Positions 1 to 3,902 of a DNA stretch of 46,895 bases are shown piece by piece. Below the pieces are notes generated by a model. It saw only the letters and a program-made list of their open reading frames with translations, was not told the origin of the DNA and did not search any database. Source of the DNA: a virus; the IMG/VR virus record IMGVR_UViG_3300006793_004190, positions 1 to 46,895 of that record; one strand, 5' to 3'. Both the position numbers and the translations under genes were made by a program. The stretch's first letter is position 1. Every line of letters begins with the position of its first letter.

Positions 1-969
1 AATTGGACCTGTAAATCCAAACAACTCGCCTGCGCTAATAGCATCTTTTACACGTTGTGCTTCTGCTTGTACATCAGCTGGCATATTAGCAAATGGTGCC
101 ATTTGTACAGCACCTTCGTTCATATGTCCAAAGTAATCGCCTGTTTCCCATGTACCGTCTAGTACTTGTCCTACTTTCTTAATGTAGTAAGGACCCCAAT
201 TGTCAATAGTTGCTGTCAATTGTGCATTAGGAGCAAACTTCATTTGATCACTTGCTTGTCCAAATCCAAGTACGCCTGCTTGTTCTGCCGCTTGTAGCGG
301 AGCAGGTGAGTCAGTGTGTTGTGCTACAATGTCACAACCCTGTTGGATCATTGCTACTGCTGCATCTTTTTCTTTGCCTGGATCGTACCATGTGTATACC
401 CAAGTAATTTTTAGGTCTACATCTGGGTTCATTTTCTTTGCACCTAGATAAAATGTGTTAATTTCACGCATAACTTCTGGAATTGGGAATGAAGCAATAT
501 AACAAATTGTATTTGTTTTTGTCATCATGCCAGCAACAATACCTTGTACGTGTCTTGCTTGATATAGTTTCAAGCCATAGTTAGCAGCATTATCTAATTG
601 CTTATAACCTGTAGCATGTTCAAACTTTACGTTTGGAAATTTCTTTGCTACAGCCATCACTGGATCCATATATCCAAATGATGTGGCAAAGATAATGTCT
701 GCACCTTGTAGTGCCATTTGTGTTAGTACACGTTCTGCATCAGCACCTTCTGCTACACTTTCAACAAACGTAGTTTCAACACGATCTCCGTATGCTTCTT
801 CTACTTGTTGACGACCAATATCGTGTCGATATGTCCAGCCGTGGTCACCTGTTGGTCCAACGTAGATGAATCCAACAGTTACTTTATCTTTAGGAGTATC
901 TGCTTGTGCTGACACTGCTAAAGACCCCAACATTAATAATGCTGTGGTAAATATTTTTAATAATTTCAT
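1..969 (-). CDS. BMP-family ABC transporter substrate-binding protein (C-terminus cut by window edge)
   Basis: The 323 visible codons read as a periplasmic binding protein of the basic membrane protein family (PnrA/Med-like), whose members bind nucleosides or related small molecules and hand them to an ABC importer. The N-terminus is a Sec signal peptide (MKLLKIFTTALLMLGSLAVSAQA, shown here only as its first 23 residues in two halves: MKLLKIFTTALLM and LGSLAVSAQA) with an AxA cleavage site and no lipobox Cys. Family-like stretches follow: VGFIYVGPTGDHGWTY near residue 31, and later GADIIFATSFGY and GCDIVAQHTDSPAP. The gene lies downstream of the tmRNA on the same strand with an AAGGAA stretch before the ATG. 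No permease or ATPase is visible, so it would have to serve host ABC subunits. Phages carry PstS-like binding proteins in the sea; a BMP protein is unusual. Ligand is unknown. Confidence 0.85.
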   Translation of the reverse strand, partial: MKLLKIFTTALLMLGSLAVSAQADTPKDKVTVGFIYVGPTGDHGWTYRHDIGRQQVEEAYGDRVETTFVESVAEGADAERVLTQMALQGADIIFATSFGYMDPVMAVAKKFPNVKFEHATGYKQLDNAANYGLKLYQARHVQGIVAGMMTKTNTICYIASFPIPEVMREINTFYLGAKKMNPDVDLKITWVYTWYDPGKEKDAAVAMIQQGCDIVAQHTDSPAPLQAAEQAGVLGFGQASDQMKFAPNAQLTATIDNWGPYYIKKVGQVLDGTWETGDYFGHMNEGAVQMAPFANMPADVQAEAQRVKDAISAGELFGFTGPI

Positions 970-1459: not shown

Positions 1460-2302
1460 ATGACTCAACTCATAAACCCACAAAAATTTACAGACACAGT
1501 TGGCCTTTTAAGGTCATTTTTTTTGGCTAAAGGATTCTTAGAAGTCCACACCCAAAACAGACTAAGCATATTAGCGGCTTGCGAAGATCCGTTTAATGTA
1601 GCAACTTACAATTATGCAGACCAAGTTTGGCCACTACCGCAAACAGGCCAGATGTGGTTAGAACATGAATTATTAAGCAAGCCCGATAGTAAGGGCTTTT
1701 TTTGTGTGTCAACGAGTTATAGACAAGAACCAAATGCTATACCAGGTAGACACGATATTATCTTCCCTATGTTTGAGTTTGAGATGCCTGGCGATGTTAA
1801 CGACCTTAAAGCAATGGAGTATGAGCTGTGTGAATACTTGGGCTTTGATCCATTAACAGAAAAAACTTACAGAGAATGGCAACAACATTGGGGTGTAAGT
1901 GCTGATGTTGAAATGGATGACAGTCACGAAAAAGGTATGGAAATGAACTTTGGTAGTTGTTTAATTACAGACTTCCCAGAACTAACATCACCTTTCTGGA
2001 ATATGGCACGTAACGATGATGGCAACACTGCTAAAAAGATGGACGTTATACTAGGTGGTATGGAAACTATTGGATCAGCAGAGCGTAGTTGTGATGTTGA
2101 TATGATGCGTGATACATTCCACAGTATTGTAGACGGCGAGTATGCACAGTTACTATACAAACTGTTTGGTAAAGAACGTGTGGAAGCAGAACTAGAAGAG
2201 TTCCTAAAATTTGACTTCTTTCCTAGAGTAGGCGGCGGTATTGGTATGACAAGAATGATTGCGGCACTGGACAAACAAGGAAAGATTGCCCTGGCTGCAT
2301 AA
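1460..2302 (+). CDS. Class II synthetase core protein, AsnRS/AspRS/AsnA-like, without anticodon domain
   Basis: 280 aa from ATG 1460, preceded by GAAAAAGGAAAA; an earlier in-frame start lacks an SD and overlaps the terminator. The protein is a bare class II catalytic core of the Asp/Asn/Lys group. Motif 2 is SYRQEPN with R88 and E90 followed by FPMFEFE; DFPELTSPF is at 171-179, GGMETIGSAER at 199-209, and motif 3 GGGIGMTR at 258-265 carries the conserved Arg. The N-terminal OB-fold anticodon-binding domain of true AsnRS/AspRS is absent. Size and layout match the archaeal AsnRS-related asparagine synthetase (about 290 aa); EpmA is another anticodon-domain-free relative. A tRNA with an Asn anticodon begins 5 nt after the stop, so charging of that tRNA or asparagine production are both open. 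The C-terminus reads IALAA, like an ssrA degron. Confidence 0.85.
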   Translation: MTQLINPQKFTDTVGLLRSFFLAKGFLEVHTQNRLSILAACEDPFNVATYNYADQVWPLPQTGQMWLEHELLSKPDSKGFFCVSTSYRQEPNAIPGRHDIIFPMFEFEMPGDVNDLKAMEYELCEYLGFDPLTEKTYREWQQHWGVSADVEMDDSHEKGMEMNFGSCLITDFPELTSPFWNMARNDDGNTAKKMDVILGGMETIGSAERSCDVDMMRDTFHSIVDGEYAQLLYKLFGKERVEAELEEFLKFDFFPRVGGGIGMTRMIAALDKQGKIALAA

Positions 2303-2307
2303 ATTGA

Positions 2308-2409
2308 TCCAGGGTGGTGAAATTGGTAGACACGCACGACTGTTTATCGTGTGGTTAATAGCTCGCAAAGTATTTAACCGTGGAGGTTCGAATCCTCCCC
2401 CTGGAGCCA
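2308..2409 (+). tRNA. Unusual tRNA: leucine-type body, anticodon GUU (Asn), long variable arm
   Basis: 102 nt including an encoded CCA. Acceptor TCCAGGG (2308-2314) pairs with CCCTGGA (2399-2405). D-arm GTG/CAC with AAATTGGTAGA matches tRNA-Leu. Anticodon stem CACGA/TCGTG (2335-2339/2347-2351) encloses loop CTGTTTA, giving anticodon GTT (2342-2344) and an unusual U37. A variable region of about 30 nt contains a 6-bp stem GGTTAA/TTAACC. T-arm GGAGG-TTCGAAT-CCTCC is canonical. The discriminator is G73, as in tRNA-Asn and unlike tRNA-Leu (A73). Long variable arms normally mark Leu, Ser and Tyr tRNAs, so this is a Leu scaffold with Asn identity elements, directly after a synthetase-like gene. Confidence 0.85.
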
Positions 2410-3687: not shown

Positions 3688-3902
3688 TTATATTCCATCT
3701 CAGTAATAATATCAGTACCCTCTTTGTCCATTGCAATACTTAATGCCATTGCTTGTATATCGTCAATAATATTTTGACAGGCTGCTTTATCATAATTTTT
3801 ATATGATATTTCACTAAATTCATTCCGTACACGATGTAACAGAATCGCTTTGTCTTTCATTACTTCAAGTCTTCTTAAAAGATCCTCAATAGAATGTTGC
3901 AT
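3684..3902 (-). CDS. Hypothetical protein, helical (72 aa)
   Basis: Starts MQHSIEDLLRRLEVMKDKA after a GGAGG Shine-Dalgarno in the short leader. It is predicted all-helical and contains one Cys. It is the first gene of a late unit with the AlgH/YqgE gene (4-nt overlap). No family recognised. Confidence 0.7.
   Translation of the reverse strand: MQHSIEDLLRRLEVMKDKAILLHRVRNEFSEISYKNYDKAACQNIIDDIQAMALSIAMDKEGTDIITEMEYK

Follow-up and report, generated by a model that had tools for sequence, protein, structure and literature searches.

A stand-alone AsnRS-like core gene is paired with a long-arm tRNA(GUU) in many ocean phages and probably charges it

The window analyzed here, by which we mean the whole 46.9-kb fragment of a virus record, encodes an enzyme gene and a tRNA gene on the same strand (Table 1). 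The open reading frame of the enzyme specifies 280 amino acids and ends with TAA (2300-2302), its ATG being preceded by AAGGAA. The tRNA is 102 nt long and begins 5 nt past this stop codon.

Table 1. Positions of the enzyme gene, the partner tRNA and their diagnostic elements within the window
Feature	Position	Strand	Basis
Miniature class II (AsnRS/AspRS/LysRS-type) synthetase core	1460-2302	+	PF00152, PHROG_29758, AlphaFold2, Foldseek
Amino-acid recognition motif QTGQMWLE (Q61-E68), with AsnRS-type Glu and not AspRS-type Lys	1640-1663	+	Alignments
Motif 2 and its loop, R88...E108: RQEPNAIPGRHDIIFPMFEFE	1721-1783	+	Alignments
Motif 3 GGGIGMTR, R265	2231-2254	+	Alignments
Class II (long variable arm) tRNA, GUU, U1-A72, G73, encoded CCA	2308-2409	+	RF00005 (Rfam) 49.2 bits, covariation, fold
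Anticodon GUU; following base 2345 is U37	2342-2344	+	GUU in 97/97
Long variable region, 30 nt, with a 6-9 bp arm	2352-2381	+	Stem covaries
Discriminator G73	2406	+	G in 97/97

Several other features of the window were recorded. A two-piece (permuted) tmRNA lies just upstream of the pair on the minus strand (983-1355; Rfam alpha_tmRNA, 134 bits). Its tag reads ANNNYAPEMALAA, and homologues with the tags ANANRAPEMALAA, ANDNRAPAMALAA, ANDNYQAEMSLAA and ANANYQPEMAMAA occur in many related loci. The gene of a PnrA/Bmp-type ABC substrate-binding protein (1-969, minus strand; PF02608, E 1.7e-47) is likewise found in many related phage loci. On the other side of the pair, an 18-codon ORF with a ribosome-binding site (2482-2538; MLQGMYKPSWCPGNWGMP) is rich in Trp and Pro codons and precedes a terminator-like hairpin (2568-2597), after which genes for tRNA-Trp and tRNA-Pro follow; this ORF was found only in copies of the same stretch. 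A replicative helicase and a second phage protein (33358-34743 and 42427-43434, minus strand) are closest to those of PA5oct-type jumbo phages (approximately 47-52% identity), and the helicase is also close to that of Atu_ph07 (about 47-52% identity).

PF00152 matched the enzyme over nearly its entire length (E 6.6e-17), and PHROG_29758, a PHROG of unknown function, matched it at E 1e-131. It starts at the catalytic core. Since nothing lies N-terminal of this core, the N-terminal OB-fold anticodon-binding domain of AsnRS is absent, as an earlier sequence-only reading of the window had proposed. The protein falls outside all curated NCBIfam families: it scored 30.9 bits against TIGR00457 (asnS, cut-off 342.6), 22.4 bits against NF005055 (asparagine synthetase A, AS-AR/PRK06462, cut-off 389) and 14.1 bits against the EpmA/GenX lysine ligase model (cut-off 286.9), and the Pfam search revealed no match to AsnA (PF03590). 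When a profile of the enzyme family was compared with the PDB, AsnRS 2xgt was the best match (E 9.5e-12) and archaeal asparagine synthetase A (3p8t) followed far behind (E 7e-4). An AlphaFold2 model was obtained from a 63-row alignment with a mean pLDDT of 91.5; the single-sequence prediction (pLDDT 36) was not usable. Foldseek revealed that this model resembles AsnRS/AspRS cores, most at TM scores of 0.69-0.77, such as AsnRS 1x54 (0.77) and AsnRS 9sh8 (0.76). The closest predicted viral structure is that of a Pithovirus protein with 44% identity.

Class II motifs 1-3 are present together with their catalytic residues. Invariant in alignments of 40 and 63 sequences are Q61, T62, Q64, L67 and E68 of the recognition motif, R88, E90, G96, H98, F102, P103, E106 and E108 of motif 2, and G262 and R265 of motif 3; E202 and R209 are also among the invariant catalytic residues. 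The pocket was compared by sequence only. Its segment QMWLE fits the AsnRS pattern Q-L-x-[AVL]-E (QLxAE), whereas the AspRS counterpart is Q-L-[YF]-K (QLYKQ), with the lysine one place earlier. Judged by these alignments, the active site is intact and of AsnRS type. The segment SSQIYLE is found in two archaeal proteins whose highest NCBIfam score, a sub-threshold one, was with the model for asparagine synthetase A. Hence, the active-site glutamate distinguishes AsnRS from AspRS, whereas asparagine-synthetase-like proteins can have it as well.

The window tRNA has the acceptor stem TCCAGGG/CCCTGGA, followed by G73 and CCA, and an anticodon stem CACGA/TCGTG that closes the loop CTGTTTA. RNA folding alone produced the same cloverleaf (z -2.4). 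A tRNA-Asp(atc) called by ARAGORN was rejected, being in the wrong register; the 5-bp stem and the 7-nt CTGTTTA loop are kept in all relatives. Among 97 distinct tRNAs of this kind, U8, A14, A15, U48, U1-A72, GUU and G73 are invariant, the invariance of GUU resting on sets collected from the enzyme gene because the DNA pattern used to find the tRNA directly required this anticodon. G18G19 and the T-loop bases are intact. Of the 97 sequences, 84 have U at position 37, 12 have A and one has C. The modification t6A needs A37 and therefore cannot form in most of the partner tRNAs, that of the window included. C33 was observed in 7 of the 97, and at nine loci it replaces the near-universal U33. The variable region spans 11-38 nt in the relatives, unlike the short class I region of tRNA-Asn.

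In 39 distinct tRNAs, 99.4% of the pair cells were paired, compared with only about half when the pairing partners were slid as a control. Both sides had changed in 19 of the 25 base pairs, the covariation extending to the variable arm, and 119 double-change cells were counted versus 20.8 ± 3.8 in shuffles, none of which reached as high a number (0/500). The tRNA structure is under selection. A pseudogene was ruled out by covariation together with the invariant identity bases of the 97 sequences.

According to a review of tRNA identity (PMC9976931), asparagine identity resides in the anticodon and G73, and GatCAB selects U1-A72, the bacterial signal for amidation of Asp-tRNA(Asn). GUU, G73 and U1-A72 were each found in 97 of 97 partner tRNAs. 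The body is of tRNA-Leu type, with a class II outline, a Leu-type D arm and A15 and U48 in all 97; the earlier description of a leucine-type body with GUU and G73, 5 nt after the stop, was therefore accurate. Leucine identity depends crucially on A73, and bacterial Ser tRNAs retain G1-C72 and G2-C71 (PMC9976931). In place of these, the partner tRNAs have G73 and U1-A72 (97/97 each). By the same rules, the Leu and Ser acceptor signals are missing and the Asn signals are present. Charging by host LeuRS is ruled out by the missing A73. For host SerRS, G73 is present, yet other pairs stand in place of G1-C72 and G2-C71, making the tRNA a poor substrate. The tRNA is a chimera: its acceptor end and its anticodon loop are of asparagine type, and they are joined to a body whose D arm, A15-U48 and long arm are of leucine type.

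Linkage between the two genes was analyzed in both directions. A DNA pattern for the tRNA alone, without protein information, identified 80 phage loci. The enzyme gene lies just upstream in 78 of them, and the remaining two begin at the tRNA, on contigs of two loci (L076 and L079) with a known enzyme gene. Conversely, at least 598 IMG/VR stretches encode relatives of the enzyme. Among the best 80 of these that are of the window type, the tRNA is present at 76, usually 4-10 nt past the stop, a rate that holds for close relatives since these loci are the best matches. The 76 include one locus (L019) whose contig ends inside the tRNA and five tRNAs with a bulged T stem, which were recovered by covariance model or by eye. 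For the cyanophage type the tRNA was found at 74 of 80 loci, the other six being cut by the contig end (74/74 testable). IMG/VR contigs include near copies, and distinct sequences were counted where it matters. The tRNA is retained at six loci whose enzymes are only 57-60% identical to that of the window. The adjacency that the sequence-only reading had proposed to look for in other phage genomes is hence conserved.

Using tBLASTn, the enzyme gene was also detected in the Prochlorococcus phages P-SSM7, P-SSM2 and P-SSM5 and in two huge metagenomic phage genomes. A long-arm tRNA-Asn(GUU) is located directly 3' of the gene in all three P-SSM phages, and the 252-kb genome of P-SSM2 contains exactly one tRNA, the partner tRNA. 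The P-SSM2 tRNA-Asn is annotated at 164094-164179, and the sole tRNA that ARAGORN reported in our P-SSM2 stretch adjoins PSSM2_198. It follows this gene directly, at 3814-3899 of that stretch (L002), equivalent to 162083-162168 of AY939844.2. In a tree calculated by a quick method, with many weak forks, the tRNA label requires four changes versus 26 in shuffles. The pairing of gene and tRNA exceeds chance, and the pair is common in the ocean, where hundreds of phages carry it.

The family also has members without the tRNA. Proteins of Patescibacteria, Bacteroidota, Midichloriaceae, Pasteurella atlantica and others form a cellular branch with 50-60% identity to the window enzyme and retain the same invariant residues as the phage enzymes. 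No long-arm tRNA was found next to these cellular genes, and in a search of 13 whole cellular-branch genomes with the phage-tRNA covariance model, the highest-scoring matches, which were those inspected, were ordinary tRNA-Leu. Dihydroorotate dehydrogenase (pyrD) is encoded nearby in 18 cellular loci and a PyrE/PyrF-type gene in 21; tRNA-less loci of this kind include L141, L100, L093, L101 and L125. Genes resembling argH and PEPCK are also found near the cellular branch, and in ten Patescibacteria loci the enzyme gene lies between Dus-like and DnaX-like genes, all four of these names being derived from the sequences themselves. AsnA and AsnB are both present in 3 of 21 cellular-branch genomes, and several are without strong forms of both, a mixed content that does not decide on asparagine synthesis by the enzyme. 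Among phages, the tRNA is absent beside the gene in two lineages (L031/L047 and L083/L084), in four huge-phage members (L004, L005, L366 and L367) and at two loci (L090 and L092). At one locus (L091) the partner tRNA is reduced to its acceptor stem (TCCGGGGTCCCCCGGAGCCA), either by a clean internal deletion or through an assembly error or collapse.

We consider it probable, at roughly two chances in three, that the two genes form a dedicated cassette in which the miniature AsnRS-like enzyme charges its own class II tRNA-Asn without reading the anticodon. Linkage in both directions, the invariant bases, covariation, the AsnRS-type motifs, the profile match and the structural model support this reading, and a near-absolute partnership of one tRNA with one core is most simply accounted for if the core charges that tRNA. 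The aminoacylation pair suggested by the sequence-only reading is thus strengthened as regards adjacency, down to about 57% enzyme identity, and charging itself stays a probable activity. The stand-alone core would activate asparagine with ATP and attach it to the co-encoded tRNA; asparagine is expected from the pocket motif and the anticodon. An enzyme that has no anticodon domain must discriminate by the acceptor end and perhaps also by the class II outline. The motif 2 loop of class II enzymes usually contacts the acceptor end. Since this loop is conserved and U1-A72 and G73 are invariant, the enzyme most likely selects its tRNA by the acceptor end (U1-A72, G73), perhaps together with the class II outline. 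The earlier suggestion that it reads the long arm found no support at the sequence level, as the arms differ in length (11-38 nt) and have little sequence in common; hence only the presence of an arm could be recognized. GUU would be retained through decoding and not through charging.

The product of such a cassette would be an Asn-tRNA that reads AAC and AAU and is in part shielded from charging and modification by the host and from defences that target tRNAs. It could supply Asn-tRNA when host tRNA-Asn is cleaved, when the host's GatCAB-dependent supply runs short or when t6A is missing. The only tRNA of P-SSM2 is the partner tRNA, which is more in keeping with such a special role than with supplementation of codons in general. 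Several observations count against the cassette: the tRNA-less cellular branch with the same invariant residues, the tRNA-less phage members (including the huge phages), and the pyrimidine at position 37 and C33 in 7 of 97 tRNAs, which are unusual for an efficient decoding tRNA. In addition, GUU, G73 and U1-A72 would equally be required by host AsnRS or by ND-AspRS plus GatCAB.

This last route belongs to an alternative that the sequence-only reading had already raised and that keeps its standing because of the tRNA-less cellular branch. The enzyme could be an asparagine synthetase like AS-AR, producing free asparagine from aspartate and ammonia, with the tRNA charged by host AsnRS or ND-AspRS plus GatCAB, whose identity elements it all carries. 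The size and domain loss of AS-AR are shared by the enzyme, the glutamate motif of the archaeal SSQIYLE proteins is compatible with such an activity, and the pyrD, pyrE/F, argH-like and PEPCK genes near the cellular branch touch aspartate metabolism. However, the protein stayed below the cut-off of every curated asparagine-synthetase model (22.4 of 389 bits), the profile matches AsnRS much better than AS-AR, three cellular-branch genomes already have both AsnA and AsnB, and synthesis of free asparagine leaves the near-absolute linkage to one odd tRNA unexplained. We regard this alternative as unlikely, though it is the rival that deserves most weight.

It is considerably less probable that the enzyme produces Asp-tRNA, which host GatCAB would amidate to Asn-tRNA. 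AsnRS is absent from many alphaproteobacteria, which would suit this route. The amidation signal U1-A72 (PMC9976931) is invariant in the partner tRNAs, but it is simply normal for tRNA-Asn, and no member of the family has the AspRS lysine, all carrying Leu and then Glu instead. We give equally little credence to the loading of another amino acid, which would recode AAC/AAU, or to use of the aminoacyl-tRNA as an aminoacyl donor outside translation. A non-purine at position 37 and the occasional C33 suggest relaxed decoding constraints, and the enzyme belongs to none of the curated families; against this, the AsnRS-type pocket, invariant GUU and intact U8, A14, G18G19 and T-loop argue for ordinary elongator use, and Asn codons are not avoided in the window (509 of 8316). 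Phages often cluster tRNA genes with cargo, and tRNA-Trp and tRNA-Pro come next in the window, so an ordinary phage tRNA beside an unrelated hitchhiking gene might be imagined. This is highly improbable: at all 80 tRNA-first loci the gene lies upstream or the contig is cut at the tRNA, across enzymes differing by more than 40%, and the idea is already refuted by the reciprocal scans, barring a large number of unpaired tRNAs in sources other than IMG/VR.

A stronger form of the cassette reading would make it a self-contained and largely orthogonal channel, in which the anticodon-blind enzyme charges only its own tRNA, host synthetases do not charge it, and AAC/AAU decoding continues despite cleavage, missing modification or a shortage of host tRNA-Asn. 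We hold this only tentatively and would put it at somewhat below even odds. The pair is present in cultured Prochlorococcus phages and is hence open to testing now. If anticodon-blind charging is true, the cassette would show a synthetase losing its anticodon domain and moving to a new tRNA class, would bear on the question of why phages carry tRNAs, and would provide a compact pair that might be useful for engineering the genetic code. With an enzyme that ignores the anticodon, the pair could be re-aimed at other codons.

Among known systems, the cyanophage 'tRNA ligase' T4-GC 194 (P-SSM2, P-SSM7, P-SSM5) belongs to the same family, at 66-68% identity; where Sullivan et al. (2010; PMC3037559) list it, it stands as sporadic and without comment. 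Bacterial and archaeal AsnRS have the catalytic core fold, motifs 1-3 and the AsnRS-type glutamate in common with the phage enzyme. Their anticodon-binding domain is absent from the phage enzyme, however, and the phage partner tRNA is class II. AS-AR (PDB 3p8t) is likewise a stand-alone core of similar size without this domain, but it is a weak profile match (E 7e-4) and is not linked to a tRNA. In pairs of the PylRS and tRNA-Pyl type, too, an unusual tRNA is served by a dedicated class II enzyme that does not read the anticodon; here the enzyme subclass and the tRNA are different, and the phage pair is expected to use a standard amino acid. Huge phages carry synthetases and tRNAs, and these synthetases were proposed to charge phage tRNA variants (Al-Shayeb et al., 2020; PMC7162821). 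They are described as related to those of the hosts, and the passages of that paper that deal with them describe no one-to-one cassette of gene and tRNA. Phage tRNAs with altered anticodon loops have been proposed to escape tRNA-targeting defences (PMC10264068). As in the partner tRNA, their anticodon loop differs from that of the host; the cassette goes further, in that the entire body of the tRNA is exchanged and a synthetase of its own comes with it. Our search of the open-access literature revealed no published account of the enzyme-tRNA pair, of the chimeric tRNA or of an abundant phage cassette that locks one synthetase to one tRNA. Single phage synthetases were already known. Phage synthetases and phage tRNAs as such are thus familiar; new are the pairing into a one-to-one cassette, the change of tRNA class and the lack of an anticodon domain in the enzyme.
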